Part shown: in pieces, positions 15,032 to 49,364 of the stretch
How the letters are laid out: every line of letters begins with the position of its first letter
How positions within the stretch are numbered: position 1 is the stretch's first letter
Assembly: GCA_918797485.1 (NCBI GenBank)
Contig: CAKKNE010000002.1
Span: 2,260,501-2,324,500 of the forward strand
Length of the DNA: 64,000 nt
From: Pelagomonas calceolata
Taxonomy: Eukaryota > Sar > Pelagophyceae > Pelagomonadales > Pelagomonadaceae
Direction of reading: 5' to 3'
Position numbers and translations under genes: made by a program
Notes under the pieces: generated by a model
Told to the model about the DNA's origin: nothing
The model's database searches: none
Seen by the model: only the letters and a program-made list of their open reading frames with translations

Positions 15032-16266
15032 ATGCGACCGCTCGCGACCATGCTCATGCTGCGCTGCACGGCAGCGCTCGTGCCGAGGGCTCTCCCGCGG
15101 GTGAGCACGCGCCTGCTCTCGACGCAGACGGACGGCGTGACGGGCTGTGTGGAAATCAAATTTACGGCGCGTTCGTCCTGAATCGCCGCGTCGACCTCCA
15201 CGCCATCGACGCGACGCCTGCTCGATAGCGTGGCGGTGTCGGTTCCTCACCGCTCGACGGAGCCAGCGCGGCCATGTCGTCGCCGAGAAATGACTTAGTG
15301 AAGAATTATCGGGTACACCCGACCCACTGGTTGATTTCCACACAGGTGACGGGCACCAAATTCGAGGAACCCGACGAGAAGAAGAACCCCCAGCGCCGGG
15401 GCGGCCACCAGGTCAAGGGCATGAAGGAGGTCGACCCGGAGACGGCGAAGCGCATGGAGGCGGTCCGCGAGCACCAGTCGAACTGCCCGCGCCTGCCCTG
15501 GGCCGACGAGATCCGCACGATGGCGGCGCAGCCGCGCGGCTTCGCGTCGCTCTCGACGGTGTCGTGCGCCGAGGGCATCGAAGGCTTCCCGTCCGGGTCC
15601 GTCGTCGGCTTCGCGACGCTCGACGACGGCACGCCCATCTTTTGTTTTTCGGCTATGAGTGGTCACACGAAGAATCTGCTCGCGGACTCTCGGGCGTCGC
15701 TGACGGTGACGGAGCCGGGCTTCGAAGGGGCAGCGGATGCTCGAGCCGTCTTCACGGGCCGCGTCGTCCCCCTCAAGGCGGAACAGGCCGACGCCGCGCG
15801 CGAGGCCTACATCAAGGCGCACCCGACGGCCTTCTGGGCCCAGTTCGGCGACTTCAAGATGTACGGCATGACGGAGATGCTCGACGTGAGCTTCGTGGGC
15901 GGCTTCGCGCGCGCCGGCGGCGTCACGGTCGACGAATACTTGGAGGCGAGCGTGGACCCGTGCCTGGCCTTCTCCGAGCCGGTCATGGGCCACATGAACG
16001 GCGACCACGGGTCCTCTTTGAAACAGTACGTCGAGGTGCTCGTGGGCTGCGCGCCGGTGAAGAGCGCGCGCATGAAGCGGCTGGACCGGCTGGGCTTCGA
16101 CGTGCGCGTCGAGGACGCGGAGAGCGGCTCGACGGGCGTGCTGCGCGTGCCCTTCGACGAAGAAGTCACGGAGCGGAAGAAGATCAAGGACGCGATCGTG
16201 GCCCTCTCGAAGAAGTGCGCCGCCATCAACCCCGACTGGCGGCCGCACGGCTCCGAGGAGGAGTGA
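15032..16266 (+). CDS. HugZ/DUF2470 family FMN-split-barrel protein
   Basis: Exons 15032-15136 and 15346-16266 (341 residues) after removal of an introner. The first exon encodes an Arg/Leu-rich presequence (MRPLATMLML...RLLSTQ) that suggests an organelle. The body has a pyridoxamine-5'-phosphate-oxidase-like split barrel (about 70-215, with RGFASLST, GSVVGFAT and the heme/FMN-contact region MSGHTKNLLADSRASL). A C-terminal DUF2470 domain with GHMNGDHGSSLKQY follows. This architecture is shared by bacterial HugZ heme oxygenases and by the plastid glutamyl-tRNA-reductase-binding protein of plants. A tetrapyrrole role is likely. The ATG at 15274 seen in the open frame lies inside the introner and is not the start. 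Confidence 0.85.
15137..15345 (+). mobile_element. Introner, 209 bp, in the HugZ-like gene
   Basis: Perfect 8-bp target duplication GTGACGGG (15137-15144 and 15346-15353). TIRs are CTGTGTGGAAATCAA and TTGATTTCCACACAG. Splicing GTGACG...CACAG restores ...TDG|VTGT in phase 0. Orientation R (AAATTT and GGCGCG after the left TIR). Full-length type, used as a reference copy. Confidence 0.95.
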
Positions 16267-16292
16267 TTGCTAAGAATATTTGTATGACAGAC

Positions 16293-17057: not shown

Positions 17058-17532
17058 ATGGCGCGTTTTTGAGGCGCAGAGCTGGCAATTTGACCTTCCA
17101 AGCGGTGTTGTTGCAACACAGAACGGCTGCTGCGACTTGTACGCGCGATGCACCAATGTGACGCTCAGGGCCCCCCTTTTGCAGCCTAGATAAAAGACAC
17201 TAGACTCAAACCCGCGCAACCCCTTGGACTGCCCATCTGTCTGGTACTCGTCCTAACAGGTACCGCGCCCCGTAGGACTCGAAGACAGCATGGTGCTGCT
17301 GCCACTCAGTAATGACAAGCTCAGTGCAGGGCCAAAAACCGGGCGTCCTGTGCGGCATCGCTGGTGATTCGGACGGCGTCGGCTCAGCATTCATTGTGCT
17401 TGTTGGCGTCGAAGCAGTTGCGAGAGTTTTAACCGACGCCGACCTTCTCAAACCAGACCTCTAAAGCTGCCGTCAGAGTGCAGTGAAAAAACACCCTCGG
17501 CCCGACCGATCGCTGCCGGCGGCGCTGCCAAA
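17058..17532. other. Divergent intergenic region
   Basis: 475 bp between the methyltransferase and the gene at 17533, with one short CTAG-bounded motif (17186-17203). Nothing else seen. Confidence 0.5.
17186..17203 (-). promoter_or_regulatory. CTAG-bounded motif, short variant
   Basis: Reverse strand CTAGTGTCTTTTATCTAG, 129 bp upstream of the methyltransferase start on the same strand. Confidence 0.35.
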
Positions 17533-18862
17533 ATGGCGGCTCACAGAGTGCTCTCCTTGGTAGCACTCCTCGTCGCACCAACCACCGCACTGAGCTACGA
17601 CCCGGCGCGGTCGCTCGCGCCGCTGCACCGCCTGCTCTTGCAGCGCACGGTGCAGACGCAGACGGTCTATCTGACGGACTTCCACGACGAGGCCAAGGCC
17701 CAGTGGCTCGCGAACTACCTGGACCCGCAGGCGCCCATGGACACGGTGCGCATGTCGAACACGGAGTGTTTGCCGCGCTACAACGGTTTGGACGGCTTCC
17801 CGCACGCGACGAACGAAGAGTACCTAAGGACGATGATCCGGAGCGAGCCCATCACCTACGAAGTCCGGTACAAGGTCGGGACCTGGGCCGGCGGCAACCA
17901 GGGCACCGGCGGCGCGGTCGGGCCCTCGGAGGAGCCCGCGGCGGACGAGGCCTTCCGCAAGGGCATGGAGCAGAAGCAGACCTTGGACTTCTGGGGCGGC
18001 TCGAACAACGCCGCCGCCGCGAGCACGCGGCGGAACAACCCGTTCCTCGGCGAGCACACGGCGAAGTACCGCGAGTACGAGGAGACGATCGTGCCCTCGC
18101 GCTTCGCCCAGCTATTGATGACGACGCAGCAGCAGCTCGCCAAGGAGTGGCGGCGGGACCTCTGCGCCATCTACGACGGGTCGCTAATCCTGCCGCGCGA
18201 CCCCGACGCCGACGAGGCGCAGGCCATCGCGGCGGAGCAGTCGCTCTCAGTGCACAAATCAAATTGGCGGGGCGCGCCTCTTCCACGCCATCGACGCGAC
18301 GTCAGCACGACGGCGTGGTGGTGTGGTCTCTCGCCGCTCGTGAACCCGACTCACTGGTTGATTTATGCACAGGTCGCTCTACGCGCGCGTGATTCGCGAC
18401 AAGGCCATGGGCGAGGACCCGGACGAGCTCGGGCGGTTCGCGACGTCTCCGCTGCGGGCCGCGAACCTGGATCTGTGCGAGCGGCTGGCGACGCGCGTGG
18501 CCGCGCGCGAGCTTTGCGTGGACGGCGACCTGTCGCCGGCCCAAGCGCGACGCCTGGAGGAGTGCCTCGAGCGCCTCGAGAGCAGCGAGCCGGCCGAGCC
18601 GGAGGCCGGGCCGACGGACGACATCCACGCGGCGCTCGCCGCGAAGCTTGAAACCATGACGCGCGTCGACGCCTTGGGCGGCCACGCGCGACGCCGCGGC
18701 CTCGCGCGGCGGTGGCTCGAATCGCTCGAGGACGAGGCGCTCGCGGACGTCGTCCGCCGCCGCCGGAACGAGCTCGCGCGGCACTGGGCCGAGTCCGTCG
18801 TGGACGAGGTCGCCGCGACGCACGCGCTGCTGCTCCGGGAGTCGCTCGAGAGCCAACTCTAA
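17533..18862 (+). CDS. Unknown secreted or organellar protein
   Basis: Exons 17533-18239 and 18373-18862 give 398 residues. A clear signal peptide (MAAHRVLSLVALLVAPTTALS) starts it. The middle (40-230) has ordered segments such as TVYLTDFHDEAKAQWLANYL, NTECLPRYNGLDGFPHATNEEYL and a Gly/Asn-rich stretch. The C-terminal half is Arg/Glu/Ala-rich helices. I recognise no family. Without a plastid-type Phe after the signal cleavage site, secretion or the ER is as likely as the plastid. The introner splits the codon for the Ser of QSLYARV. Confidence 0.75.
18240..18372 (+). mobile_element. Introner, 133 bp
   Basis: Perfect target duplication GTCGCTCT (18240-18247 and 18373-18380). The left TIR is the variant CAGTGCACAAATCAA, the right TTGATTTATGCACAG. 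Phase 2, orientation R. Confidence 0.93.
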
Positions 18863-18902
18863 CTTATTATAAATGTTACTAGTATAGACACCATGTGATT
18901 AC

Positions 18903-20280
18903 TCAGGCGGTCACGAACATCTTTTCCAGCTGGAAGGTCCCGTAGATCACGGGCCACATCGCCAGCAGCGGCCACGACGCGAGGAGCGCCTCGCGCGGCA
19001 GCTCGAAGGACAGCTTGTTCTCGTCGAACTGGTCCTCGTTCTCGAGGTCCGCGTTCAGCGACGCGTCCAGCTCGAACTCGCGCGTCAATTCGATCTCGAG
19101 CGTCGGGTCGACGCCGAACGGCTCGACGACCTCGAGCACCTCGGCGTCCTCCTCGAGGCCCCGCTCCGCCAGGCGCGCCTCCTTGTCGTCGTTCGCGACC
19201 TTGGACAGGATCGTGACCCAGACGATCTCCATGACGTCGACCCACAGCAGTTTCAGATCCAACGGCACGAGGTGCGAGAACGAGATGCAGTGCACAAAGG
19301 GCCAGAAGCGCCACGAACTCCGCAGCGCCGGCCACGACGTCGCCTGGACGTCCTTCCAGACCTCGCGCGGGTCCCGCAGCGCAAACGTGCCAATCAGGAA
19401 GGAGTAGCACGCGTTGAGGTAGAGAGACCACACGGTCTGGTCCGCCAGGACCTTGACCCCCGTCCCGTACCAGGCCCCGTCAAAGTCCAAATAAGTCTCC
19501 ATGAAGACCTGTGTGGAAATCAAATTTCGGACGCCCCACGCCATCGAACTACATCTGCTCGTTGATTTCCACACGGATGAAGACCATCCAGTAGTGGCAG
19601 AGCGGGCCGTGGCCCACGAAGCCCGCGGCGCCCGACCGCGCGGACCGCGCCAGGTCGACGGTCTTCAGGGTCCGGCCCTGGTAGACCTGCGACACGAAGT
19701 CGCCCAGCGTGTAGGCGACGCCCGATGTGCAGGCCTTGTAGAAGACGGGGTTCGTCGGCACCAGGGCCTCGTAGCCCCGGATGGAGTCGCCCGGCAGCTT
19801 CGCGAGGAGGTCCACGGACGTCGCGAGGCGGTAGGCCAGCGCGTCCTCCATGGGCCGGTCCTCGGGCAGCGTGTACTTAAAGAGCGCCAGAATGGCCTCG
19901 ACGTCCACGTGGAGCAGCTCGTAGCCGACGCCGATCGCCACGAACGCGAGCACGGCGGCGTTCACGTACGCGATGAGGTTGAGGCGCTGGATCACGGCCA
20001 GCCGGTCCGCGGCGGCCTGGCGCCGCGCGGCCTTCATCTCGCGCTCGTAGGCGGCGTCGTCGTAGTCGACGCCAGTATCCGCGGCCAGCGCCGTCGACGG
20101 CCGGTCGCCGGCCGCGTCTTTCACGGCCGCGAGCACGGGAGTCCTCCTTCTTGCCGTTGGTCGCGCGCGCTGGCACGGCGTTGGGGCGAGGCCGTCCGCG
20201 GCCAGTATTGCGCAGGCGACGAGTACTGTTGTGAGTTTCCGCTTTTGCAGCAGCAGCATCATGCTGACCCACGGCAGCAA
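18903..20280 (-). CDS. Mpv17/PMP22 family membrane protein
   Basis: Exons 20280-19585 and 19508-18903 (433 residues) flank an introner. The start has a hydrophobic signal segment (about 14-29, ending AADG before LAPTP), which could be a plastid bipartite leader. A hydrophobic helix (about 100-125) and the family core follow: PVFYKACTSGVAYTLGDFVSQ, FVGHGPLCHYWMVFMETY, WRFWPFVHCISFSHLVP and LLWVDVMEIVWVTILS. These are the four-helix Mpv17 signatures. The C-terminal extension (about 330-433) is acidic and ends in another hydrophobic stretch, longer than usual for the family (about 200 residues). The channel-like role in inner organelle membranes is family knowledge. Confidence 0.88.
19509..19584 (-). 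mobile_element. Introner, 76 bp, in the Mpv17 gene
   Basis: Perfect target duplication GTCTTCAT (plus-strand ATGAAGAC at 19501-19508 and 19577-19584). It is an internally deleted copy with intact TIRs. Sense orientation F, phase 0, restoring YWM|VFMETY. Confidence 0.95.
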
Positions 20281-23539: not shown

Positions 23540-23574
23540 GTAGCACATTAAATTAGTTAAAAATCTCCCCGGAG

Positions 23575-24826
23575 TCAGCCGAGGCCCTCCCAGCCGCCCC
23601 GGTTCCAGTCCTCCTCGTCGGAGTCGACCTGGGCGCTCCGTTTGGCGTCGCAGGCGGCCGCCGTCGAAAGGGCGAGCGTCGCGAGGTCGACGCGCGGCGC
23701 GTCCGGCCCCTCGAAGAAGCGCGCCCCGAGCGCCTCCGCCGCCGTCGCGCGCCGCGTCGGCTCGAGCACGAGGATGGTCCCTATCAGCTCGAGCGCCGCC
23801 GCGTCGGCCCGCGGGCAGACCTCGGCGAGCGGGAGGGGCTCCATGGCCTTGAAGCAGATCTTCGGAAAGTCCGGCGTCGCCGCGGCGGACGGGAACCGCT
23901 CGGCCGTTGGCGAGCCCATCTTTTTGAAGACGACGAGGAGCTGCTCGATGTCGCTGCGGCCCTCGAAGAGCACGTAGGCGTGCAGGATTTCCGCCAGGAC
24001 GACGCCGACGGCCCAGAGGTCGATGGCCGTCGTGTACGAGCGCGCGCCGAAGAGCAGCTCGGGGCTCCGGTACCACCGCGTGCTGATCTGGTGCGAGAAG
24101 TCGCTTTTTTCACCCTCCTTTGCGACGAGGGGCCGCGCCTGGCCGAAGTCGCCGACCTTGAGGACGCCGGCGTCCGTGATCATGAGGTTGCTCGGCTTGA
24201 CGTCGCGGTGGCAGAGGGCCCGGGCGTGGATTTCGCCTGCGCGCGGACGGACGGCGTGAGTTGTTCGCCCTCCACGCCGTCGACGCGGACCGGTGGTCAA
24301 TCAGGGACGCGGGCCACGGACGCAGCCCCAGCAGCGCCATGCGCGTCCAGGCCCGCGCGACGGGCGCGTCGAGGGGCGCCTTGCGCACGTCCATGACGCT
24401 CTTGAGGTCCGTCGCGCAGAACTCGAGGACGATCGCGATGTTCGGCCCGCGCGGGAAGTGCGCCACGTACTGCGTCACGTGCTCGACGCCGACGAGCTCC
24501 CGCAGGCACCAGATCTCCCTGAGTAAGCCCTTGGGGACGCTCTCGCCGTCGTCGCGCTCCGCGCCCGGCACGCCCGACAGCCGTGCGAGCTTGACCGCCA
24601 CGCGCGCCTGCGTCAGCCGGCAGAAGCCCTCGTGGACGTCGCCGAAGGCGCCGCCGCCCACGTTCCTTCGTAGTTCAAAGCGCCGCTTGTCCGGCAGGTC
24701 GCCGATGCCGCTGCCGGGGACTTCGGGCGCCTCGCCGCAGCCCTCGAGGATGTCCTCCTGGAGGGCCGGGCTGTGGTCCTCGGCGTAGGTCTCGCTCTTG
24801 CAGTCGTCGTCCGCGAGGCTACTCAT
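23575..24826 (-). CDS. Cyclin-dependent-kinase-like Ser/Thr kinase
   Basis: Exons 24826-24322 and 24236-23575 (388 residues) joined across an 85-bp intron. Visible motifs: Gly-rich loop GGGAFGDV, VAVK lysine, the C-helix region ESVPKGLLREIWCL in place of PSTAIRE, HRDVKPSN, VGDFGQA (DFG), the activation segment end TRWYRSPELL, and DLWAVGVVLAEI. The RWYRSPE segment is CMGC-type, and the C-helix resembles CDK20 (CCRK), which acts in cilia; that placement is tentative. The intron removes a gap between LLGL and EIHARALCHRD exactly where other kinases are continuous. Confidence 0.85.
24237..24321 (-). mobile_element. Degenerate introner-like intron, 85 bp
   Basis: GT-AG intron in the kinase (donor GTCCGTGG, acceptor CGCGCGCAG), phase 1. 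It keeps the family core (plus-strand CCTCCACGCCGTCGACGCGG) but no clear TIRs and no target duplication, so it looks like an old, decayed copy. Confidence 0.55.
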
Positions 24827-36563: not shown

Positions 36564-38088
36564 ATGGGCCGCTGCCGCTGCTGCCTCTTGGTCGCCGCGA
36601 GCCTGCTCACGACCGCCGCGGCCGCCGCGTTCGGCTGGTTCTACGTGTGGCAGGTGCTCTACGCGCCGTACCTGCAGGGCGCGCGCGACATCGTCTACGA
36701 CGCGGCGCGGGAGCGCGTGATCGTTTCCGCGCTGCACAGCAACGTGATCGCCGTCGTCGACGTGGCGACGCCGTCGAAGCCGAGGACCCTCGGCTGGCGC
36801 GCCGACGACGCGTTCACGAACGCGCACGGCTTCGCGTACGACCACGGCAGCGCCACGGCCTACGTCGCGTCGTACGGGCGCGGGTCCCTCGCCAAGGTCG
36901 ACCTCCGGAACCCGGCGCGCGACAAGCTGCCCGTCGTCGCGACCCTCGAGAACGACGAGCTATACAGCGCGACGCACGCGTCCTACGACGCGGCGCGGAA
37001 CCTCGTCTTCGTGACGGCGGCCGGCAGCCACGACCTCGGCGAGGACGCCGACGTGCTCCGGGGCGGCCACGACCTGCTCGTCGTCGACGCGGCGACGATG
37101 CGGCGGACGGGCCTGCTCACGGACTGGGGCGCCGGCGCGGAGCCGGCGTACCCGGTCTACTGCGTCTACGACGCGGCGCGCGCGCTGCTCTTCGCGTCGA
37201 ACGACGCGCGGAACCGGCTCGAGGTCGTCGACGTCGGCGACGCGGCGCGGCCCGCGGTCGTCGGCGAGGTCGCGGCCGTGCCCGAGCTCGCGTACGTGTC
37301 GCAGCTGGCCCTCGACGCGCCGTCGAACCTCATCATCGCGGCGTCGCAGAAGGGCGACTCCGTGGCGGTCGTCGACGTCGCGGACGCCGCGAACCCCAAA
37401 ATTCTGGGGTCGCTGACCTCGGACGCGCTCGACGGCGCGACGGGCGTCGCCTACGACGCGGCCCGGCGCCTCGCGTACGTCGCGAGCGAGTTCGCCGGCA
37501 CGCTCAGCGTCGTGAACGTGACGGACCGGGCGACGCCCGTCATCGTCGCGGGCGTACGCGCGCCGTGTGGAAATCGACCAGCGAGTCTCGGTCAGCAGAC
37601 GTCGCGTCGATGGCGTGGGGGTCACCGCGACGATTTCCGCGCAGGTCGCGCACGACGCGCTGCGCGGGGGCGAGGCCGTCGCGTTCGACGCGGCGCGGCG
37701 GCGCGTCTTCGTCGCGTCGCGGACGAGCGCGTGCCTGGTGGAGGCCGACGTGCGCGACGCGGCCGCGCCGACGGTCGTCGCGGCGCTCTGCACGCCGCGG
37801 ACGCCCGCGGACGCCGTCAAGGTCGTGGCGATGGTCGCCGGGTCCTTGCTCTTCTTTTTGCTCGCGCTTTGGCTCGCGGCGGCGGCGTGCTCGCGAAAGC
37901 GGTACGCGCGGCAAGGGTACGGCCAGGTCGACACGTTCGACGAGGACGGCTACGACCTCGGCGACTTCGAGCTCGGGCGCCTCGAGACGAAGGACGAGTA
38001 CTGCGACGACGACGACGACGACGACGACGATGGGGAGGGGCTGCCCCAGGTCAATCCGCTGGTGGTGCCACCAGGTAAGGGTGATTAG
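36564..38088 (+). CDS. Membrane-anchored beta-propeller (LVIVD-type repeats)
   Basis: Exons 36564-37553 and 37645-38088 (477 residues). A hydrophobic N-terminal signal/anchor (LLVAASLLTTAAAAAFGWFYVW), then about seven repeats of a 40-45-residue unit that pairs YDAARxxxxVxA with VVDVxxxxxP, as in LVIVD/propeller proteins. Near the C-terminus is a strong membrane helix (VVAMVAGSLLFFLLALWLAAAAC) and an acidic cytoplasmic tail with a run of nine Asp. The introner sits inside one repeat. Removing it restores VIVAG|VAHDALRGG, in register with the other blades. Likely a surface or endomembrane protein. Ligand unknown. Confidence 0.75.
37554..37644 (+). mobile_element. Introner, 91 bp
   Basis: Donor GTACGC, then CCGTGTGGAAATCGACC, ending GATTTCCGCGCAG. 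The target copies GTACGCGC and GTCGCGCA are diverged. Orientation F, phase 0. Confidence 0.88.
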
Positions 38089-38091: not shown

Positions 38092-39229
38092 TTAGTAGTC
38101 CCCGACGCCCGGGATGTCGAGCTCTCCTAGATCGGCGGCGATTTCCTCGCCTTCGTCGTCCTCGTCGTCCGCGGCCGGCCTCGCGCCGTTGTCGATGAGG
38201 GGCTTTCCCGCTAACAAAAGCGCGCATTGCTCGGCGAATTGGCCCTGCTTGAGCATCCACGACGACGTGAAGACCTGTGTGGAAATTAACCCATCGGGTG
38301 CATTCCTCGGCGGCGACGCGACTGCATTTCTCGGCGGCGACGCGACCATGCTGAGAGACCCACACCGCCACACCGTCGAGCAGGCAAAGCGTCGATTGCG
38401 TGCAGGTCATGATTCAGCAGGACGCGCCACGACAAATTGATTTATGCACCGGTGAAGACCTCCTTCCAGACCAACACCCCGTTCTTGTCGAACAGGAATA
38501 AGAAGCCGGGCGCCGGCGCCTTGCCGATCGCGGCGAAGGCTTCCTTGACCTTGCGGCCCTCGTCAAAAGCCAGAGACATGTCGAAGATAAGCTCATCGAT
38601 CGACTGCGTCGGCATAGCAGTCCCGTTCTTCTTGAGCATCGCCTCGCAGTCCTCCTTGGCCGCGTCGCACGAGACGCCCAGGACCTGCGCGCAAATGAAG
38701 GCCATGATTGTAGCAGTGGCGGAGACGCGCCGCGACAATTTGATTTATGCACTGCGCAGCACCTGGAGCTCGGGCAGCGCCCTCATCAAATACGAGACGT
38801 GGACCATCGTGCGGTAGTCACCCTTGGCGTACTTCCCCCAAAATAATACTGCGCACGGCTTGCCGGCGGCGGGCGCCTGTGTACAAATCAATCCGTGAGT
38901 CGGGTGCACGCAGACGTGCTGGCTCCGTCGAGCGGCGAGGAACCAGCAGCGCCACGCTATCGAGCAAACGTCGCGTCGATCGCCTGGAGGTTGACGCGAC
39001 GAAGGCGCCGTGGTATTTTGATTCATGCACAGGTCGGCGCCTCGCCCTTGACAAACTGCAGCGTCGACAGATCCGGCATCTTGAACGTCCCGTCGAGGCC
39101 GCGCGCGTCGGAATAGGTCGCCTTGTCCTCGGTCAGGCCCGGCTTGCTGGCCAGCGTGGCTCCTTCAGGTGAGGCAAGGTCGGGGAGCGCCATTTTGCTG
39201 ATCGCTGCATGGTCGACGTTGGCAGCCAT
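38092..39229 (-). CDS. Thioredoxin-like protein without the CxxC site
   Basis: Four exons (39229-39041, 38876-38763, 38684-38460, 38274-38092), 236 residues, interrupted by three introners. The fold is readable: a strand GKPCAVLFWGKYAKGD where thioredoxins have the WCxxC site, then VLGVSCDAAKEDCEAML, the cis-Pro-type APAPGFLFLFDKNGVLVWKEVF strands and a C-terminal helix, as in AhpC/TSA or TlpA-like proteins. The catalytic cysteine pair is replaced by YAKGD, so it is probably not a classical redox enzyme. The tail is acidic (ADDEDDEGEE). Stops converge with the propeller gene 3 bp away. Confidence 0.75.
38275..38459 (-). mobile_element. Introner, 185 bp
   Basis: Perfect target duplication GTCTTCAC (plus-strand copies at 38267-38274 and 38452-38459). 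Left TIR CGGTGCATAAATCAA, right TTAATTTCCACACAG. Orientation R, phase 0. It restores WKE|VFTSSW. Confidence 0.95.
38685..38762 (-). mobile_element. Introner, 78 bp
   Basis: Target copies GTGCTGCG and GTCCTGGG (6/8). TIRs CAGTGCATAAATCAA and CATTTGCGCGCAG. Orientation R, phase 0. Internally deleted copy. It restores PELQ|VLGVSC. Confidence 0.9.
38877..39040 (-). mobile_element. Introner, 164 bp, GC-AG
   Basis: Target copies GCGCCGAC and GCGCCCGC. Donor GC. TIRs CTGTGCATGAATCAA and TTGATTTGTACACAG. Orientation R, phase 0. It restores VKGE|APAAGK. Confidence 0.88.
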
Positions 39230-39742: not shown

Positions 39743-40271
39743 ATGGCAGACCTAGAAACCATGTACGGCGAGGACGCCGCGCAAGCCCTGTACATGTGGC
39801 GCTTCGCCGGCGTGAGCTTCGGGCTCGAGGCCCGCTTCTGGTGGACGCTACTGGGCTCGCTGGCGACGGCGTCGCTCACGGCGCTCGGCGCGATCGTGTA
39901 CAAGGTTATCGACGAGCGGATCTCAGACAATACCTGGCTGACAAACGAGCTGAAGGACGGGCTCCCCTACGACGGCACGACGTCGGTTCCCGGCGGCACG
40001 CGAGCCTTCGGACGCTGGGGCGGCGGAAAATGGATTTGGATGGCTCAGAGCTGTGTGGAAATCAAAATTTTACGGCGCGGTCGTCTTTGCGTCGACCTCC
40101 ACGCCATCGACGCGACGCTTGCTCCCGAAACACTGGTTGATTTCCACACAGGCTTACAGTATCGCCGGCGGCGCGGTCATAGAATACGAGATCGTCTCCT
40201 CCGCGCCGGACGGCGAGCAGCTGGCGGACGACTACGAGGAGCTCGGCGGCGGCCGCTGCGCCGTCATGTGA
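39743..40271 (+). CDS. Small membrane protein ending in a CaaX box
   Basis: Exons 39743-40042 and 40152-40271 (139 residues) around a GC-AG introner. One hydrophobic helix (FWWTLLGSLATASLTALGAIVY, about 34-55). The C-terminus is GGGRCAVM, a textbook CaaX motif (A, V aliphatic; Met in the last place favours farnesylation). Without splicing the frame reads into the introner and never reaches that C-terminus. Family unknown. The codon use and the frame restored across the intron make the gene credible. Confidence 0.7.
40043..40151 (+). mobile_element. Introner, 109 bp, GC-AG
   Basis: Target copies GCTCAGAG and GCTTACAG (6/8). TIRs CTGTGTGGAAATCAA and TTGATTTCCACACAG. Removal gives WIWM|AYSIAGG in phase 0. 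Orientation R. Confidence 0.9.
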
Positions 40272-40305: not shown

Positions 40306-43300
40306 TCACAATCTTGAATTAAACTCCGGCCGCGGCTGCCCGCGGAGCGCCTGCTTCGCCGCCCGGAGCGCGTCAGACGCGCCCGGCGGGCCCGCCGCGG
40401 CGTTGCGGGACTTCCGCGGCGCGCGCGCCGGGACGACGGGCGCCGCCGTCTTTGTCTTGCGCCGCGGCGCCGGCCGCGACGACGACCCGTAGGGGCCGGC
40501 CGCGCGGCGCGGCTTACGTTTGCCAGCGTTCCTGCGCGGCTCCGAAGGGCGCCTCGGCTCTTGGACGACCGGCTCGTCGTCGTAGTCGTCGTCGTCGTAG
40601 CGCTTCGGGGCCACGGCCGGGCGGACTCGCATGGGCCGCGCCTCGGGGCTGTGCCAGGGTCCGCGGTCGGGGTCGCGCGGCGCGAAGACCGGATCGCGCG
40701 GCGGCGCCGGCCGGGGCTCGCTCCGCGGCGGCTCTCGCGCCGGCTCGGTGCGCCGCGCGGGCGTCGTCGCCGAGAGCAGCGGCGCGTAGTACGACGCCGG
40801 CCCGCGCACGAAGCGGTTCGCGCCCGCGGCGCCGCCGAGCGCGAGCTCGGGCGGCCGGTCCAGAGTCGCCGGCGCGGCGCCGACGCCCCGCTCGCGCAGG
40901 GAGCACAGGAAGCAGCTCGCGAGGCCGTGGCGCGCGCAGGGCTCCGGCGACGCCGGGGCCGCGGTCGTCGCGGCCGCGACGGGCAGCGCGATGCCGCCGC
41001 GGACGCCGCAGACGGGGCAGTCCGCGACGCCGTGGACGGCGCAGCCCGGCCGCGGCGCGGGCAGCGGCGACGTCAGGCTCGCGCCCTGCAGGGAGCAGAG
41101 GAAGCAGTCCTTGAGGCCGTGGCGGTCGCACGCGGCGCCCGCGGGCTTCGGCGCTTGCTGCGTCGGCGCCGCCGGGGCCGTCGGCGCCGGCTGCGCGAGG
41201 TAGCTCGCGACGGCGGAGGGCTTGGGCGGGCTCGCCGCCGGCCGGGCCCGGAGCGTCGCGACGCGCGGGTCGGAGCCCTCGAGCGACTCGGCCGACGACA
41301 CCTCGCCCGGCGTCGCCTCGCGGCGGCGTCGCGCGGCGCGGCCCGACGACGCGGACGGGCTCCGGTCCTTCCGCGCGGGCGTCCGCGCTGTGTCGCCGCC
41401 GCGCGCGTCGTCCTTCCGCGCGGGCGACCCGCGCGACCCGCGCGACGCGCGCGACTCCCGGAGCAGCGCGCGGGCCGGCGAGGCGGCTGCTTCCTCGGCC
41501 TGGGCCTCCGCGGCCCGGGCGACGGCCGCCTCGGCCTTTGCGGCGACGCGCGCGGCGCCCCTGCCGAGCTCCTCGACCCGCCGGCGCCGCCGCCGCGTTT
41601 CGAGCTTGGCCGTCCGGCCGCGCTCGGCGGCCTGCAGGCGCGCGGCCGCGGCGTCGCGGGCCGCCGCCTCCTCGGCGCGCGCGTCGGCCGCTTCCCGGGC
41701 CCGCCGCTTGGCGCCGCGGCCGCGTTCCGCCGCCTGCAGCCGCGTCGCGGCGGTCGAGTAGGCCTCGGCCTCGGCCCGCGCCTTCTCGCGTTCCGCGCGC
41801 TGACGCTCCCGCTGGAGCTCGGCCAGCCGCGCTTCGTACGCGGCCGCCTCGGGCGACCAAGGCTCCTCGGGCTCCTGCCTTGCTAGCGGCGTCGCAGGCG
41901 ACCGTGCTGCGGCCGGCTCTCGCCTTTCCGCAGAGCGTGCGGGCGACCGCACCTTGGCTGGCTCCCGTCTTTCTGCAGAGCGCGCGGGCGGGGATCGCGC
42001 TTTGGCGGGCTCCCGCCTCTCTTGAGAGCGCGCGGGCGACCGCACCTCGGCCGGCTCTCGTCTTTCTACGGAGCGCGCAGGTGATCGCGCTTTGGCAGGC
42101 TCCCGTCTCTCTTGAGAGCGCGCGGGCGACCGCGTCTCGGCGGGCTCCCGTCCTCCTCGAGCGCGTGGTGTACTCCTCGCAGCGCGCTGGGGCGACGGCG
42201 CCTCGACGGGCTCCCGTCTTCCCGCAGAGCGTGCGGGCGATCGATCTTTGGCAGGCTTTCGTCTCTCTGCGGCACGCGCGGGCGACCGCGCCTCGGCTGG
42301 CTCCCTCCTTCCCGCAGAGCGCGCGGGCGACCGCGCCTCGGCGGGCTCCCGTTTCCCGGCAGCCCGCGGCGTCCTCCCGGCAGCACGCGCGGGGGACCGC
42401 ACCTCCTCGGGCTCCCGCCTTCCGGCAGCGCGCGGTGTCCTCCCCGCAGCGCGCTGGGGTGACCGCACCTTGGCTGGCTCCCGCCTTCCCGCAGAGCGCG
42501 CGGGCGATCGATCTTCGGCGGGTTCCCGTCTCTCTGCGGAGCGCGCGGGTGATCGCTCTTTGGTAGGCGGCGGCCTCCGGCCAGCACGCGCGGGCTCGGC
42601 CTCGCGCCTCCCCGCACCTCGCGCGGGCTCAGCAGGCAGCGGCCGCCCGCGGCGCGCCGCCGCCGCGGGCGACCGATCCGACGTCTTGCGGGACCGCGGG
42701 GCGTCGGGCGTCGTGTTGCGGAGCCGCGGCGGCGAGAACCGCTTCGCCGGCGTGACGCGCGGCCGCGGCGGCGACGCCTGGGGCGAGTTCCGCGGCGTCG
42801 AGACGGGCGACTCCGGCGGCGGCGACGCCGGCCGCACCGGCGCCGGCCGCATCGTGTCCGTTTTGTCGGCGCGCCTCCGCGTAAGCGACGGCGGCGGTGC
42901 CAGGCGGGGCGAATCCCGCGACGGCGAGATGTAACGCTCGAGGATGCCGTCGACGTCGTCGTCGATCGGCGGCGTCGCGAGCCCCGGCGGCACCTCGTCG
43001 GCGTCGTCCCAGAAGCCCGGCTCCGCCTTCTTCGTCGGCGTCGGCCGCGGCCGGAACCGCTCGTCGTCGGCGTCGTCGCCGGCCTCGGGCGTCGGCGCGC
43101 GGTGGCGGGGCGTCGACTTGCGGAGCGGCCCGCGCCGCCGCTTCTGGCTCGGCGGCGTGCGCGCGTCCGCGCGGAACGTGACCTGGCGCGTCGGCGACGC
43201 CGGCGTCTTGGGCGTCCGCTCGCCGGTCCGCCGCGGCGTCGCCGCGTCGGCGTCGGCGGCGAAGGACACGCTCCGCGCGGTGCGCGTCGACTCGGGCCGG

Positions 43301-46300
43301 CTCGGCCCAAAGTCCGACGACGGGGGGCGGCTCGACTCGAGCCCGAGGTCGTCGAGCGACGAGCCGCGGCTCGAGAGCGAGCCGCGGCTCGAGCGCCGCG
43401 ACGTGGCGTAGGCGTCGTCGCTTTCGACGTCGTACTCGTAGTCCGTGCGCGAGTCGACCGACGACGGCGTCGGCGGCCCGCGCGACGCCGTCGAGAGGCG
43501 GGTCCGCGCGCGCGCGACGCGCTCCGCGACCTCGTCGGCCGTCAGGGCGCCCGTCGGCGCGAGCGCCGCCAGCAGCGCGTCCGCGTCGCGCCGCGTCACG
43601 TCCGAAAAGGACCCGCCGCAGCGCCGCAGGCCGCGGTGCAGCTCGGCGGCCGTCACGGGCCGCCGGCCGGACGCCGCGTCCAGCGCGCGCCGCAGCCGCA
43701 CGCCGGCGGCCTCGCAGGCGTCGAGGAGCGCCTGCAGCCGCGCCGCCTCGGGCCCGGCCGACGGCGGCGGGGGCGGCGCCCGCGCGGGCCGCGGCGGCGG
43801 CGAGCCGCGGTAGCGGTCGCAGAACCGCTCGAGCTCGCGCCGTGAGACGCGGCCGTCGCCGTCGCCGTCCATGGTCTCGCAGACGCGCCAGACGTCGGCC
43901 CGCGTGAGGCCCTGCGTGCCGCTGCCCCGCTTGAGCGCCGCCCAGAGCTCCTCCGCCGTGAGCGGTGCGTCGCCGACGTTGCTGAAGTAGAACCGGAGGG
44001 GCGTGCCCCGCGCCTCCCGCTCGAGCAGTATGGAGGCCAGCCGCGCTGCAGAGGCCCCGGTGTGACGGTCGTCGGGGCTGCGCTTCTTCGGCAGCGACCG
44101 CGGCGCGTTGCCGCCGTCGGCGACGCCCGGCGTGGACACGGCGAAGCTCGGGCGCGGGGCGGGCCGCTGGGGGCGCGCCGGCGCATTTTTCGGGGCGCGC
44201 TGGGGCGGCGGCACGGCGGGCGGCGGTCGCTTGGGGGGCGATGGACCTGTGGGCGCGGGCCGCCCGCGGAGCCAGGCCTTGCCTTTGGGGGGAGAGTGGA
44301 ACAGTCGCTGCGCCGCGAGCTCGGCCATCTCAGCCCGCTCCTCTGCGGCCGTGGCTCGCCCCTCGAGCGTCCGCGCACCTGTGCGGAAATCAGTGCGTCG
44401 GGTGCACCCGATAATTCTTCACCAGTCATTTCTCGGCGATGACGCGGCCGTGCTGGCTCGGTCGAGCAGCGAGGAACCGGCATCGCCACGCCGTCGAGCA
44501 GGCGTCGTGGCGATGGTATGGAGGTCATAATTGAGCCGTGAAAAGTGCCGCGAAATTTGATTATTGCACTGCCGTGCACGTGCCTCTGCGCGCTCGGCGC
44601 GCTCGACTGCCGCGGCCGCTGCCGCCTCGAAGGGGTCCGGCTTCGTAGGCCGCCCCGGCCGTCTCACCGGACTCGGTGACGGCGTCCGTGCTCGTTGCTC
44701 CGCGGCTTGGAGTCGCTTGCGCAGGCGCGCAATCTCTCGCTTCGCTTTGACGAGGCGACGGCTATCGTCGATGACCTCGTCGACGCCTGTGTGGAAATCA
44801 AATTTCAGGCGCCCCACGCCATCGACGCGACGTCGTTCCAATGACTGCGTCTGCTCTCCACGCCATCGACGCGACATTGTCACACCGTAACTGGGCAGCT
44901 CGATGGCGTAGAGGTTCACGAAGATCTCAACAACCTAACCCACTGCTTGATTTCCACACAGGTCGAGGCGGAGCCGCGCCGTGACGCGCGTGGCGCGCTG
45001 AGCAAATGCTAATGTGGACGCCGTCTCGTCGTAGGCGTCCTGGGCCGCCGACGCCGTCGCGATGACTACGGCGCGCGTTCCGCCCCCGAGCGCGTCCTGC
45101 AGCAACCGTGTCAGCACCGAATCTCTATAAGGAACGTGGCCTCCGCCCCGATGAGCCTCCGTCGCCAGATCCGCGAGCGCTGCGATACAATTTCCTAAAG
45201 CGCTCAGCGACGTGTTGATCGCCCGGAGCTCGCGAGCGAATTGCTGAGATGCGGCGACCTCGTCGGACCTATGTGAAAATCAAATTTCGAGCGCCCCACG
45301 CCATCGACTCGATGTCGTTCCCGTGACTGCGTCTGCTCAATGGAGTGGAGATTAAACGCCATCGACGCGACGTTGCCTCCGTAACTAGCGGCTCGATGGC
45401 GTGGATGTTGACGAAAGTCTCCGATAACCTAGCTCACTGGTTGATTTCCGCACAGCGTCGGACCACTTCTCAGAACCAGCCAGGTCCACGAGCGAGAGCT
45501 TCGCGCGACGAACCACCGTGCGCGTACCGGCCGTGCCCGGCGTCTGGGCCGTGGACGGCGGCACGTCGGAGGCAGCAAACTGGCTCCATCGCGCCGGGTC
45601 GTTATTCTCGTCGTTGCCCTTCTCCACGGACTCGACCTCGAGCGCGAGCTGCAGCACGGCGTGGCTTCGCGACGAGTGCTCGTTTGACCGCGTGGCGCGC
45701 GTGGCGCGGCCTTTCGTGCCACGCGCGACGAGCGCGAGCACCTGTGCGCAAATCAACCAGTGAGTCGGAGTTCACGGCGATACCGCGGCCGCTCTGGCTG
45801 AATCGAGCGGTGAGAGACCGCACGGCCACGCCGTCGAGCAGGCGTCGCGTCGATGGCGTGGAGGTCATGATTCGGCGAACCACGGCGACGACCCGAGGCG
45901 CTCATCCACTGACACAGGGAGCGTCTCGTAGCAATTACCAGCCGTACGTACAAAGTACGAAAGGATCTGGCTACTTCCCCACCGTTGAGAATCGCGTCCG
46001 GCGGGCATGGAGGTCATGTATCAGTAGTGGCTGAGACGCGCCTCGACAATTTGATTTATGCACTGGTGAGTACATCCGCCGCTGATGCGACCTGGTACTC
46101 CGAGAGCCCGCGCACGAAGACTGCGCCCTTGGATCCTAGGTTCGAGGGCGCCTCGCGCACCTGGAGCGCCGGCGCCTTCGAGGGGTCCGGCACCAACAAA
46201 TCCTGGACGCGGTCCCCGTAGATCTGGAGGTAGGAACAGTGGGCCGTCGCGCGCACGATCGTGCCGTCGGCAGAGCCCGTCGCCAGGGCCTCGAAGAGCG

Positions 46301-46718
46301 ACGCCGCCGCGCGCGGGATGACGCCCGCATCTCCCGGTAACTGGCCGGCCTCGGGCGCTGCCGGCGCGCCGAGCATCGTGAAGGTCTTGCCCGTGCCGGT
46401 CTGGCCGTAGGCCATGACCGTCGCGTTGACCTGTGTGGAAATCGAATTTCGGGCGCCCCACGCCATGCTCACTGGTCGATTTCCACACAGGGTGTTGACG
46501 CCCTTGCGTGCCACGTCCTCGACGGCCGGCGCGACCCAGTCGTAGACGTCGCCCTGCGAGCAGTCTTCGGGGAAGACCTGGTCCATAGCATGCGTCAGCG
46601 ACGCGTCCTGGCCGTGGCGCGCCTTTATTATGACGTCGTTTTCTTCCACTCTAAGACTCCGGAAGGCCTCCGGGGGCAGCGGCAGCAGGCGGACCGCCGC
46701 TCTCACTCTCTCCTCCAT
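40306..46718 (-). CDS. Large kinesin: motor, EF-hand, repeat and Cys/His tail
   Basis: Six exons (46718-46500, 46430-46074, 45741-45464, 45268-44970, 44786-44580, 44378-40306) joined through five introners, 5433 nt, 1810 residues. N-terminal motor: GQTGTGKT (about 82), NEHSSRSH (about 212), LVDLAGSE (about 274), SLSALGNCIAAL and HVPYRDSVLTRLLQD. A short coiled coil (about 395-450) follows. The 1360-residue tail has an EF-hand loop DGDGDGRVSRRE (about 634), about 14 repeats of RSPARSAERREPAE (about 1050-1280), two IQ-like RLQAAERGRxAK motifs (about 1330-1390) and three CxxHGxxxCxxC motifs (about 1535-1600). The open frame extends upstream to 46907 but the motor starts at MEERVRAAVRLLP. Cargo and class unknown; calcium control is inference from EF-hand and IQ. 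Confidence 0.85.
41890..42600 (-). repeat. Degenerate tandem repeat in the kinesin tail
   Basis: About 14 units of about 45 bp (RSPARSAERREPAE), with a few longer 66-bp units that add TPRAAG. In-frame and diverged, so an old repeat rather than a recent microsatellite. Confidence 0.85.
44379..44579 (-). mobile_element. Introner, 201 bp, in the kinesin
   Basis: Target copies GTGCACGG and GTGCGCGG (7/8). TIRs CAGTGCAATAATCAA and CTGATTTCCGCACAG. Orientation R, phase 1. It joins the coiled coil to the long tail exon. Confidence 0.92.
44787..44969 (-). mobile_element. Introner, 183 bp, GC-AG, in the kinesin
   Basis: Target copies GCCTCGAC and GCGTCGAC (7/8). TIRs CTGTGTGGAAATCAA and TTGATTTCCACACAG. 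Orientation F, phase 1. Confidence 0.92.
45269..45463 (-). mobile_element. Introner, 195 bp, in the kinesin
   Basis: Perfect target duplication GTCCGACG. Left TIR CTGTGCGGAAATCAA; the right end TTTTCACATAG has drifted. Orientation F, phase 2. It restores EKWSDEVAASQQ. Confidence 0.94.
45742..46073 (-). mobile_element. Composite introner, 332 bp, in the kinesin
   Basis: Target copies GTACTCAC and GTGCTCGC (6/8). TIRs CAGTGCATAAATCAA and TTGATTTGCGCACAG. Orientation R, phase 0. It carries an extra block of about 149 bp bounded by a 15-bp direct repeat (45855-45869 and 46004-46018, 14/15 identical). Confidence 0.9.
46431..46499 (-). mobile_element. Minimal introner, 69 bp, next to the kinesin P-loop
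   Basis: Target copies GTCAACAC and GTCAACGC (7/8). TIRs CTGTGTGGAAATCGA and TCGATTTCCACACAG. Orientation F, phase 0. No stop and divisible by 3, so retention would add 23 residues just before the P-loop. Shortest copy in the window. Confidence 0.95.
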
Positions 46719-47053
46719 CCTACTCCGGTCGCGGGTCGCCCTTCGTGATGTATCGTCGTTCACTGGCCGCAGGCCTTTATCGTAAGGTGTGCTGGCATGG
46801 TGGGGCAGCCCCCGGCCGCGAGTCCCGCTCCTGCGGTTGCGTAGGGTTCTGGAAGGAGACCCCAGGGCGCTTCGCGGCTTGGCCGGCCGATCGGTTGCGC
46901 GGATCACAGAGCTAAGTTTGTAGACATACTAGGTTTTCCTCCTAGACGGCGCTGCGAGACTTTTTTGCGTTGCTTTCGTATAGACACGCCGTTTGCTCCG
47001 GAGAGACACTTCTCGGCGGCCACTGACAAAAATGTGATCGGCTGCCCTGCATT

Positions 47054-49364
47054 ATGCAACTGCTCTGGGCCCTATGGGCTGCCTGTGCCACCGCCGACGT
47101 CGTGCGGCTGCCATCGCTCTGGGCCCTATGGGTTGCCTGTGCCACCGCCGACGTCCTGCGGCTACCCGTGACGACGTCCTTCCACCGCCGGGGCAACACA
47201 ATAACCCAACGCGTGCGCCGCCGCCACGGCCGCCGCCTCCGGACGACGATTCCCATCACCGCGTGCAACGATGCCGTCTACTACGGCGACGTGCTATTGG
47301 GCACGCCGGGGCAGCGGCTTCAGGTCATATTTGATACGGGATCCGCGGATTTCTGGGTCAACGGCCAGCTCTTCGACGGGAGCCAGTCGGAGACCTACGT
47401 CGGGGACGAAACCTACCCGTTCAGCGTACACTATTCCGATGGAGACGGCGTGAGCGGGTTCCGGGCCTTCGACACTCTTACGGCGGGAAGCGTTACAGCT
47501 CCGAGCGTGGCCTTCGGCGAAGCGGAGGCGATGGGCAACTTCTACGTCTGCGGCGCCGAGGACGGCGTGTTCGGCCTCGCGTTCCGGGCGATCTCGCGGC
47601 TCAACGCGCCCACGGCCTTCGAGATGCTCGCTCCCTACCTCGACGAAGAGATGTTTGCGTTCTCCGTCCCGACGGATACGTTGGCGGGCGAGCTCGTGCT
47701 GGGCGGCGTCGACGAGAGTAGGTTCGTCGGCGAGCTGCAGTGGATCGACGTCTCCACGCCGCACAAGTACTGGCAGGCCGCGCTGACGTCCGCGTCAATC
47801 GGCGCGCAGCCGCTCGCCGGCTCCGCCGCGGTCTTCGACACGGGCACGACGCTCCTCGTGACGACGGAGGCGAACGCCTGGGCCCTCGCGGGGGCGCTCG
47901 ACGCGTGGTGCTACGCCTGGGTGAACGCCTGTGCGGAAATCAACCAGTGCGTCGGTTGCACCCGAGACACAAAGTCATTTCGCGGCGATGACGCGGCCGT
48001 GCTGGTTCCGTCGAGCGGCGAGGAACCGGCATCGCCACGCCATCGAGCAGGCGTCGCGTCGATGGCGTGGAGGTCGACGCGATGATTCAGCACGAACGCG
48101 CCGTAAAATTTTGATGTCCACACAGGTGAACGCGACGAGCTCCTACGATGTGCGGCGCTGCGCCGAGGCCGACGCGGCGGCTCCGTTCCCGGACCTCGTC
48201 GTGGCGCCGTGCGGCGCCGGCGACGATCTGGTCTTTCGCTTCGGCGCCGTCGAGGCCCGCGTGCCGCGCGACCAATACCTCTACGGCCAGGACTGCGACG
48301 AGGCCCTCGAGTTCCGCGACTGCCGCGGCGTCTGCTGGCCGAACGAGTACCTGAGCTGGATCGACGACGTCTACTGCGACGACGGGTCCGCAGGCATCTT
48401 CCTGAACTGCCCGCGCTTCGGCTGCGACTTGTGCCCCGATAACGACTGTATCGAGGACCCGGCCGACGACGCGTGCCTCCTCTCGGTCGCCGCGGACGAC
48501 AGCGTCGGCACGTGGATCCTGGGCGACGTCTTCTTCTCGGCGACGTACGTGGCGTTCGACCACGGAAACGCGCGCCTCGGCCTCGCGCCGCTCGCGTCGG
48601 GATCGGCGCCGGTCCCAGCGCCCCTGTCGCCCGCACCGTCGCCCAGGCCCTCGCCGGAGCCGGTGCCGGCGCCGACGGTAGGAACCCTGTCGTCCGACTC
48701 GTCGCCTGGGCCGACGGTCGCGCCGACGGTCGCGCCGGTGACCGGAGACATGACATTCTCCGGTCTGAGCCTCGCGGTTGCGCGGGCTAACGAGGCCGTG
48801 CTCGTCGATACGATCGCCGCCAGCGCCGGAGTCGAAGACACGTCGCGCGTGAGCATAGTCATCGCTGCCGCTGCGCGGCGCCGCCTCTCGGACGGCGTGG
48901 TCGTGACTTACACTATCGCCACCGACACGACAGCAGACTCCGACGCGGTCCTCGGCGCGCTGTTGGCCCTCACCACGGAAGATGCCAAGGCAGCCCTCAC
49001 GACCGCGGCGGCGGCGCACGGCGTCGCCGCGACCTTCGCAACCGTCGAGATCACGCAAATACACGCATCGTTGTTTGACTACCGGGTTCCGGCGCCGACC
49101 GCGCAGAGGCCCGCCGCTTCCCGACGGCGTCGCCGCGCCGGGGCCTCGCCGGCCGCGAAGACCGCGCTCGCCGCGACGCTCGCCGTCGTCGTTGCCGTGG
49201 TCGTCATCGCCGTGGCGGTCTGTGCCTGGCGACGACGGCGGCGACGGCGCCAAGAAACGTACAACAGCGTCGAACTGGCGACCAAGAGCCTCGAGCTCTC
49301 GGACCTCGCCGTCGACGAGAGCGGCGCGTGGATCATGGACGATGTAGCTAACCCTATGAGATAA
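47054..49364 (+). CDS. Pepsin-like aspartic protease with membrane anchor
   Basis: Exons 47054-47920 and 48126-49364 (701 residues). Both catalytic motifs are intact: FDTGSADFWV (about 93) and FDTGTTLLV (about 261). The flap region has YSDGDGVSGFRAFDTL. The N-terminus carries a tandemly duplicated 18-residue signal-like unit (LWALWAACATADVVRLP). After the protease come six or more Cys, a Pro/Ala/Thr-rich stretch (about 445-490), an autotransporter-like beta segment, a membrane helix (TLAVVVAVVVIAVAVCAW, about 635-652) and a basic stop-transfer RRRRRRR. Probably a type I protein of the secretory pathway. The introner lies after the second catalytic Asp, before the Cys-rich part. Confidence 0.88.
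47056..47168 (+). repeat. 54-bp tandem duplication in the protease signal peptide
   Basis: Units 47062-47115 and 47116-47169 differ at only a few bases (CTCTGGGCCCTATGGG start of each). It duplicates the hydrophobic leader. Confidence 0.9.
47921..48125 (+). mobile_element. Introner, 205 bp, in the aspartic protease
   Basis: Perfect target duplication GTGAACGC (47921-47928 and 48126-48133). TIRs CTGTGCGGAAATCAA and TTTTGATGTCCACACAG. Orientation F, phase 0. Full-length reference copy for that orientation. Confidence 0.95.

Follow-up and report, generated by a model that had tools for sequence, protein, structure and literature searches.

Introns as putative MITE-like DNA transposons: a probable introner family laid out in 33 kb of Pelagomonas calceolata

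Why introns are at times gained in bursts has long been asked, and transposons arriving as ready-made introns are reportedly the best-documented answer. Huff, Zilberman and Roy reportedly described, in Nature in 2016, the introners of Aureococcus anophagefferens as non-autonomous DNA transposons that reside as introns, and are said to have found that one splice site is carried by the element, that the other is co-opted from the duplicated target and that the insertions show a phase bias. The transposon-born intron is thus already known as a mechanism, and the initial annotation, which had invoked Aureococcus, agrees with the mechanism so reported. The present locus raises the question of whether a set of introns sharing their ends arose in this way. 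We studied it in a window (the whole stretch of DNA analysed) of 64,000 nt and 69.4 percent G+C. Judged from the sequence, the introns are very probably introner elements, that is, non-autonomous, MITE-like DNA transposons that bring a 3′ splice site of their own and take the 5′ one from the duplication.

The family was delimited by a scan for two 15-mers representing the terminal inverted repeats (TIRs), with up to five mismatches allowed and two ends accepted as a pair when less than 900 bp lay between them. Among the 32 pairs returned were all 14 complete elements, which are 60–324 bp long with 15-bp inverted ends; the other 18 were discarded, as they join adjacent copies or have poor ends, and their flanks agree at 4 of 8 bases at best. 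An nhmmer profile made from the 14 copies recovers the same 14, by construction, and one extra partial match at 2–52 (E 4e-4); no further site in the whole window lies below E 1, a search that strongly diverged copies could escape. The partial match speaks for the 15th copy claimed at positions 1..61 (minus strand), with the qualification that it is truncated and represented by its donor side only; it lies in an ESF1-like minus-strand gene whose ORF 39–1484 encodes an ESF1 RRM domain. The family therefore stands as described initially, with 14 complete copies and one cut at the window’s left edge. In each of the 14, the two ends are complementary at 10 to 15 of 15 positions. All fall under one profile and their interiors are pairwise similar, the shared sequence looked for in introners, and the short copies have their ends in common and little of the interior. 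The introns measure 69–332 nt (195–209 nt in 4 of the 14), and nine copies sit in minus-strand genes. Elements are named here by their own start (e.g. 15145, 37563), introns by a start that includes the upstream duplication (15137, 37554).

Every complete copy is flanked by a duplication of fixed length, 8 bp, two copies having a 9-nt upstream repeat. Six duplications are exact (elements 15145, 18248, 19509, 38275, 45269 and 47929). The corresponding introns are 15137..15345 (plus strand, 209 nt, donor GTGACGGG), in a CREG/DUF2470 protein gene with the junction beyond the domains; 18240..18372 (plus, 133 nt, donor GTCGCTCT), whose donor-side end lacks the complement of AG and whose host protein has no Pfam match; 19509..19584 (minus, 76 nt, donor GTCTTCAT), in an Mpv17/PMP22-family gene, the junction lying beyond the domain; 38275..38459 (minus, 185 nt, donor GTCTTCAC), in the gene of a 236-aa protein; 45269..45463 (minus, 195 nt, donor GTCCGACG), in a kinesin gene (LAGSEK^WSDE); and 47921..48125 (plus, 205 nt, donor GTGAACGC), within an aspartyl protease domain match. 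Six more carry one or two substitutions. Elements 44379 and 44787 have one (7/8), in the kinesin introns 44379..44579 (minus, 201 nt, donor GTGCACGG), downstream of the motor domain, and 44787..44969 (minus, 183 nt, GC donor GCCTCGAC; TARL^RVDEV). Two substitutions (6/8) are found at 38685, 38877, 40051 and 45742, which correspond to introns 38685..38762 (minus, 78 nt, donor GTGCTGCG) and 38877..39040 (minus, 164 nt, GC donor GCGCCGAC) in the gene of the 236-aa protein, 40043..40151 (plus, 109 nt, GC donor GCTCAGAG) in an open frame of about 140 codons, and 45742..46073 (minus, 332 nt, donor GTACTCAC) in the kinesin (SAAD^VLAL), the last with some 150 nt of additional internal sequence. The remaining two, 37563 (5/8) and 46431 (2/8 ungapped), have upstream copies of 9 nt and were matched through a one-base gap set by eye. 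They belong to intron 37554..37644 (plus, 91 nt, donor GTACGCGCG), whose host protein has no Pfam match, and to intron 46431..46499 (minus, 69 nt, donor GTCAACACC), which lies in the kinesin P-loop (KG^VNATVMAYGQTGTGKT).

The duplication is thus present at all 14 copies, as had been proposed, whereas “perfect or nearly so in 13” was generous, given six exact cases, and divergence is not limited to the copy at 37554, that at 46431 being diverged as well. Without gaps, the paired 8-mers match at 93 of 112 positions. Re-pairing the same 8-mers 10,000 times gave a mean of 47.3 and a maximum of 74, and moving the flanks outward by 1, 8, 12 or 16 bp gave 28–38 matches; we surmise that the re-pairing mean exceeds the shifted values because the 8-mers share a GT or GC start.

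Read in the orientation of the gene, the duplication starts with GT in 11 copies and GC in three. All 14 exon-side 8-mers open in this way, as do 12 of those on the donor side, joined by 37563 and 46431 once 9 nt are taken. The element ends in AG in all 14, as CACAG in 11, CGCAG in two (37563 and 38685) and CATAG in one (45269). The initial annotation was therefore right that the duplication supplies a GT or GC donor, and too strict in making CACAG the universal acceptor; its left target copy is the donor in gene orientation only, nine of the 14 copies being in minus-strand genes. Deleting the element and one duplication copy leaves an open frame across all 14 empty sites, as claimed, although this test is weak at a GC content of 69 percent, where long open frames abound; the window has 137 ORFs of 200 aa or more. 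On the DNA alone, then, GT/GC...AG borders are seen throughout, and the transcript would keep its length. Codon usage places the best frame on the predicted strand in 26 of 28 flanks of 180 nt, the exceptions being 15145 and 38877, where the left flank scores slightly better on the other strand, and margins are small at 44379 and 44787; inside the elements, 83 of 84 frame scores are negative. Intron phase is 0 in 10 of 14, a share that agrees with the placement of GT in the local coding frames (58/6/36 percent).

These borders weigh on a simpler account, in which the elements are plain MITEs that sit unspliced in genes and leave disrupted alleles or pseudogenes. Their anatomy is indeed that of MITEs. 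However, such an account leaves the GT/GC start, AG end and restored open frame of all 14 copies unexplained, as it does the fixing of AG solely at the acceptor end, and a kinesin with five insertions still has an intact motor sequence. We find it scarcely credible.

The host proteins give further support to some of the junctions. A Pfam scan of seven spliced products found Kinesin, CREG/DUF2470, Mpv17 and Asp domains in four, and five junctions fall inside homology matches, four in the kinesin motor and one in the aspartyl protease. That one kinesin holds five copies was confirmed, in a single reading frame. Three alignments of the spliced kinesin to solved kinesins span four of its junctions, including that of the P-loop, and the alignment to 6a20_A is gap-free at all four; the fourth lies just beyond the Pfam stretch (28–379) and draws its support from the solved structures. 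The protease junction is inside the Pfam stretch 76–345, and two solved relatives align on either side of it, not across. For the 236-aa protein, whose gene holds three introners, Pfam gave no match, and even the best solved relative, at E 0.32, is not credible. For nine of the 14 junctions the support consists of the open frame and codon usage by themselves. A nucleosome-sized spacing of insertions was considered and rejected, since no pattern can be claimed from the distances in the kinesin (357, 278, 299, 207) or the gene of the 236-aa protein (225, 114).

How such introns could form can be set out stepwise. A transposase encoded elsewhere would move the element, and 8 bp of target would be duplicated at insertion. 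The upstream duplication copy, which starts with GT or GC in gene orientation, would serve as the 5′ splice site. From the TIR at the downstream end, TTGATTTCCACACAG, would come the AG of the 3′ splice site and probably also a short pyrimidine run and the branch point, placed at the A of TTGAT, 11 nt ahead of the final base; the downstream duplication copy would be the restored exon. We infer from the sequence that the spliceosome removes these introns, that this branch point is used, that the elements are mobile and that a transposase from elsewhere serves them. The introner interpretation, put forward initially, is well supported at the sequence level by the TIRs, the duplications, the GT/GC donors, the AG supplied by the TIR and the restored frames.

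Because the ends are inverted repeats, the 3′ module should be readable from either end, so that the element would be an intron in either orientation. When aligned, the interiors do fall into two groups that are oriented oppositely with respect to the gene, 8 copies against 6; for 15145 and 47929, both in plus-strand genes, the interior of the latter is inverted relative to the former, with an alignment score of 223 inverted and 36 direct. The literature had already anticipated insertion in both directions, inasmuch as the pipeline outlined in part of PMC9860276 sought introns alike in opposite orientation. The orientations also bear on an RNA route of multiplication, by reverse splicing and reverse transcription, in which the border repeats would be secondary. 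In favour of this route, PMC9860276 mentions introner families that have neither TIRs nor duplications; here, however, TIRs and 8-bp duplications are present, and both gene orientations would not be expected from an RNA copy of a spliced intron. It is the least probable of the explanations weighed here.

If the elements are introners, the TIR itself deserves a closer look. In the last 55 nt of the introns, a branch-point-like yTnAy lies inside the TIR, at a constant place, in 12 of 14 (a raw count), and was not found in introns 37554 and 46431. An alternative, CTCAC at 19 nt from the intron end, occurs in three of 14 in the same interval; unlike it, the motif inside the TIR is present in both orientations. 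Among the matches listed in a search of open-licence literature, no report of a branch point inside introner TIRs was found. In predicted RNA folds, 12 of the 14 introns have at least 7 bases of the 3′ TIR paired to their first 26 nt, and 11 of 14 have the proposed branch-point A paired; this pairing could hinder splicing. It would also suit hairpin-directed removal outside the usual spliceosome, with a TIR stem joining the ends, as suggested for Amoebophrya, whose introners have inverted repeats and hairpins (PMC7789003, in part). Yet the Amoebophrya borders are described there as varied and non-canonical, whereas GT/GC-AG is found here in 14 of 14 with the acceptor AG kept, and for introns 37554 and 38275 no TIR pairing is predicted. 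We consider hairpin-directed removal very unlikely, and return to spliced introners.

The two ends of the element differ in one respect. AG stands at the acceptor end in 14 of 14, against 7 of 14 for the matching dinucleotide at the donor end, with a Fisher p of 0.006 that is too small: the CAGTG subfamily end accounts for four of the seven changed donor ends, so that the copies cannot be counted as independent. The base concerned is the last but one of the TIR (base 14), singled out after inspection of all 15 columns: it is an invariant A at the acceptor end and A in seven, T in four, G in two and C in one at the donor end. Over the TIR as a whole, divergence on the donor side was not significantly different from that on the acceptor side (Wilcoxon p 0.14). 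Column 7 is likewise invariant solely at the acceptor end (14 against 12), and columns 1, 3, 6, 12 and 13 are invariant at the donor end and variable at the acceptor end, two of them belonging to the branch-point motif. We offer tentatively, and with more doubt than belief, that the TIR is a dual-use code, in which the site for the transposase doubles as a full 3′ splice module, with base 14 left free by the transposase and fixed as A by the spliceosome.

As to the transposase, no such domain was found in the 29 chosen window ORFs scanned. We considered hAT as the source, and the 8-bp duplication expected of hAT is there; this length is common to several transposon superfamilies. hAT elements have a characteristic terminal motif and the target nTnnnnAn. 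Here CAGTG is found at the donor-side end in 4 of 14 only, target position 7 is A in 4 of 14 exon-side copies, and T at target position 2 cannot be separated from the GT donor. Other conceivable sources are KDZ, P, MuDR and Novosib. The TIR 15-mer matched elsewhere in 43 stretches of viral contigs and at least 118 of genome contigs; none of the 161 matched loci has a TIR pair within 700 bp (up to three mismatches each), and we therefore take these matches as chance. A longer end pattern, in the search for relatives, gave no matches, and an interior 19-mer hit six contigs, but no TIR-like sequence (up to four mismatches) lay within 300 bp of it in any of them.

Compared by description, not by sequence, the elements likely belong to the same family as the Aureococcus anophagefferens introners, and no difference is apparent. 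Passages of PMC7789003 credit the latter with direct repeats of constant length, with TIRs and with canonical splice motifs, a repeat anatomy that agrees with the copies in the window. In part of PMC9481584 their characteristic length is about 210 bp, close to which lie the 4 of 14 introns of 195–209 nt here (range 69–332 nt), and the G+C content is alike, 67.4 percent in Aureococcus. Three other systems are instructive. First, the introners of Symbiodinium microadriaticum, as far as PMC9860276 describes them in part, similarly have TIRs, a carried 3′ site and a 5′ site from the duplication, which is 4 bp there and 8 bp here. Second, introner family 4 of Aureococcus sp. TARA_AOS_82_MAG_00129 shares the 8-bp duplication and a pelagophyte host, but brings along the two splice sites and makes the transcript 12 bp longer (same source, in part), whereas here the duplication provides the donor and the transcript would gain no sequence. 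Third, the Amoebophrya introners also have inverted and direct repeats at the intron borders, and differ in their direct repeats of 3–5 nt and non-canonical splice borders (PMC7789003, in part).

The locus makes a compact teaching case, in which the steps, bar splicing itself, are legible within 33 kb. Were the dual-use reading of the TIR true, the module of TTGAT, short pyrimidine run and AG would be mirrored, and the element would be an intron either way round. A change of CACTG to CACAG at one end would then make a MITE a one-way introner, and at both ends a two-way one, with the two end types observed in these copies, CAGTG...CACAG and CTGTG...CACAG, as those two stages; the step from MITE to introner would be a single mutation.

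The 64-kb window, with a G+C content of 69.4 percent, is rich in eukaryotic-type genes, including those for ESF1, a SMUBP-2-like helicase, RCC1, CEP76, Hikeshi, a protein kinase and a kinesin. It was searched with the 15-mer CTGTGTGGAAATCAA and its reverse complement, allowing at most five mismatches, and ends separated by less than 900 bp were paired. Thirty-two end pairs were obtained, of which 14 are the complete elements with shared inverted ends (TIRs) named by the initial annotation. The other 18 were rejected, as they link adjacent copies or have poor ends, with a flanking match of at most 4/8 bases. A profile made from the 14 recovers all of them (by construction) and a partial match at the window's left edge, which is the 15th claimed copy; nothing else in the window falls below E 1, and the regions between 19.6 and 37.5 kb and after 48.2 kb are free of copies by this search. 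Rfam families at gathering score were absent from the window. A tmRNA called by ARAGORN at 14545-14964 is, for a nuclear genome, most likely a false positive; Rfam gives no match there at gathering score. As a whole, the original observation is confirmed, with small corrections.

The first correction concerns the 8-bp target duplications, described as perfect or nearly so in 13 copies. The duplication itself is real. The flanking 8-mers, read in gene orientation, agree at 93 of 112 ungapped positions over the 14 copies, as opposed to 47.3 on average and at most 74 when the same 8-mers were re-paired among copies (10,000 rounds), and 28 to 38 when both flanks were shifted outward. The description was generous, however: six duplications are exact, two carry one substitution and four carry two, while the copies whose elements start at 37563 (5/8 ungapped) and 46431 (2/8 ungapped) have a 9-nt upstream copy that fits with a one-base gap placed by eye. 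Two of the targets, 19577-19584 and 38452-38459, both read GTCTTCA(T/C), alike at 7/8 bases, perhaps by target preference and perhaps by chance.

The predicted splice borders are largely as proposed. The duplication supplies a donor starting with GT (11 copies) or GC (three), where the 9-nt copies are read from base one. The acceptor was said to be the TIR end CACAG; AG is indeed present in 14/14, but CACAG in only 11, with CGCAG in two and CATAG in one. Intron phase is 0 in ten copies, 1 in two and 2 in two. For the 11 GT introns, phases 0/1/2 number 8/1/2, as expected if any GT of a coding frame can serve as an insertion site, since GT starts at codon positions 1/2/3 in 58/6/36 percent of 821 cases counted over 11 of the window's coding ORFs.

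When the element is taken out together with the upstream copy of the duplication (9 nt long for two elements), the predicted strand reads through as an open frame in 14/14, in line with the claim that the reading frame is restored. Because long frames are cheap in such G+C-rich DNA (137 stop-to-stop frames of at least 200 aa in the window), stronger support was sought. The minus-strand gene at ~40-46.5 kb encodes a kinesin (Pfam PF00225, E 3e-82) and does hold five copies. Four lie at predicted exon junctions (^) spanned by alignments with solved kinesins, namely KG^VNATVMAYGQTGTGKT (46431), SAAD^VLAL (45742), LAGSEK^WSDE (45269) and TARL^RVDEV (44787); the 6a20_A alignment has no gaps at any of them (of 158 matches, three were inspected as alignments). 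The fifth (44379) comes after the motor domain. In an aspartyl protease, the 47929 copy falls inside the Pfam match, where neither of two solved relatives viewed aligns across the junction. The copies at 15145 and 19509 share a frame with CREG/DUF2470 and Mpv17, respectively, outside the domains, and the remaining copies are supported by open frames and codon usage. In the 180-nt flanks, codon usage is best in a frame on the predicted strand in 26/28 (15145 and 38877 each depart from this at the left flank, and margins are small for 44379 and 44787); within the elements, 83 of 84 frame scores are negative and the remaining one is 0.03. Separately, one small gene without a Pfam match at 38275-39040 holds three introners in 770 bp, a few kb from the kinesin's five, and the coding region of the kinesin tail (41868-42596, minus) contains degenerate repeats, mostly at 45 bp spacing, that translate as RSPARSAERREPAE-type repeats.

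The protein kinase contains a likely ordinary intron at 24237-24321 (minus), GTCCGTGG...GCGCAG, whose removal joins LLGLR^EIHARALCHRDVKPSNL; it has neither 8-bp duplication nor TIRs. A 23-nt stretch of it is similar to the interior of 3/14 elements (91 percent, E 4e-4 to 8e-4), so this intron may descend from an introner copy that has decayed over time.

The TIRs, duplications, GT/GC-AG borders and restored frames support the interpretation of the elements as introner elements, that is, non-autonomous DNA transposons that bring their own 3' splice site and use the target duplication as the 5' site. The phenomenon as such is not new; this arrangement was reportedly described by Huff et al. 2016 for Aureococcus anophagefferens and Micromonas. 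According to Gozashti et al. 2022 (PMC9860276), Symbiodinium introners have the same arrangement with duplications of 4 bp, unlike the 8 bp found here; other arrangements occur in other hosts, including one with duplications of 8 bp in Aureococcus sp. Aureococcus introners have direct repeats of constant length, TIRs and canonical splice motifs (PMC7789003) and a characteristic length of ~210 bp (PMC9481584). The 14 introns described here measure 195-209 nt in 4/14 and range from 69 to 332 nt. The G+C of the window and the repeat anatomy of the elements agree with Aureococcus or a close pelagophyte as the probable source.

A branch-point motif was sought in the last 55 nt of each intron. The motif yTnAy, whose A precedes the final base of the intron by 11 nt, occurs in 12/14, always within the TIR; it is kept in the variants TTAAT, TTCAT and CTGAT and lost in the introns starting at 37554 (ACGAT) and 46431 (TCGAT). 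CTCAC is additionally present farther upstream in three introns. Of the two candidates, the motif in the TIR is the likelier branch point, being the one that both orientations possess. In predicted folds (z of -0.3 to -6.8 against 25 mononucleotide shuffles each), at least 7 bases of the 3' TIR pair with the intron's first 26 nt in 12/14, and the candidate branch-point A is paired in 11/14 (in 37554 with something other than the TIR). Such pairing at the 3' TIR would have to be opened by the cell.

Aligning element interiors both ways relative to the host gene placed eight copies in one orientation (15145, 18248, 38275, 38685, 38877, 40051, 44379 and 45742) and six in the other (19509, 37563, 44787, 45269, 46431 and 47929). 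Inversion is clearest between 15145 and 47929, which both lie in plus-strand genes: their alignment scores 223 in inverted and 36 in direct orientation. Some interior pairs score similarly in both directions; the placement of 19509, 45269 and 46431 depends entirely on the other copies in the group of six, and that of 38685 entirely on 45742. The 45742-46065 copy has ~150 nt of internal sequence not in the other aligned copies, which might stem from a nested insertion or reflect an ancestral form that was longer. Both orientations are found because the inverted-repeat ends offer the same 3' module from either side, and the survey pipeline of PMC9860276 already allows for opposite-orientation introners.

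Comparison of the two TIRs of each copy over 15 columns reveals no difference in overall divergence between donor and acceptor sides (p 0.14). The last-but-one base is A in 14/14 on the acceptor side; on the donor side, read on its own strand, it is A in seven, T in four, G in two and C in one (Fisher p 0.006 for 14 versus 7 of 14, the base having been singled out after all columns were viewed, and four of the seven changed ends having one common subfamily end). Among the other 14 columns, nine show no variation at the donor end (1, 3-6, 11-13 and 15) and five do (2 and 7-10); column 7 is likewise fixed at the acceptor end only, and columns 1, 3, 6, 12 and 13 go in the opposite direction. The last-but-one base thus seems free for transposition and fixed where splicing needs AG, which, from sequence alone, supports use of the AG. 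It is this split constraint at one TIR base, combined with two-way insertion, that may interest specialists, as it suggests that a single mutation could lead from MITE to introner.
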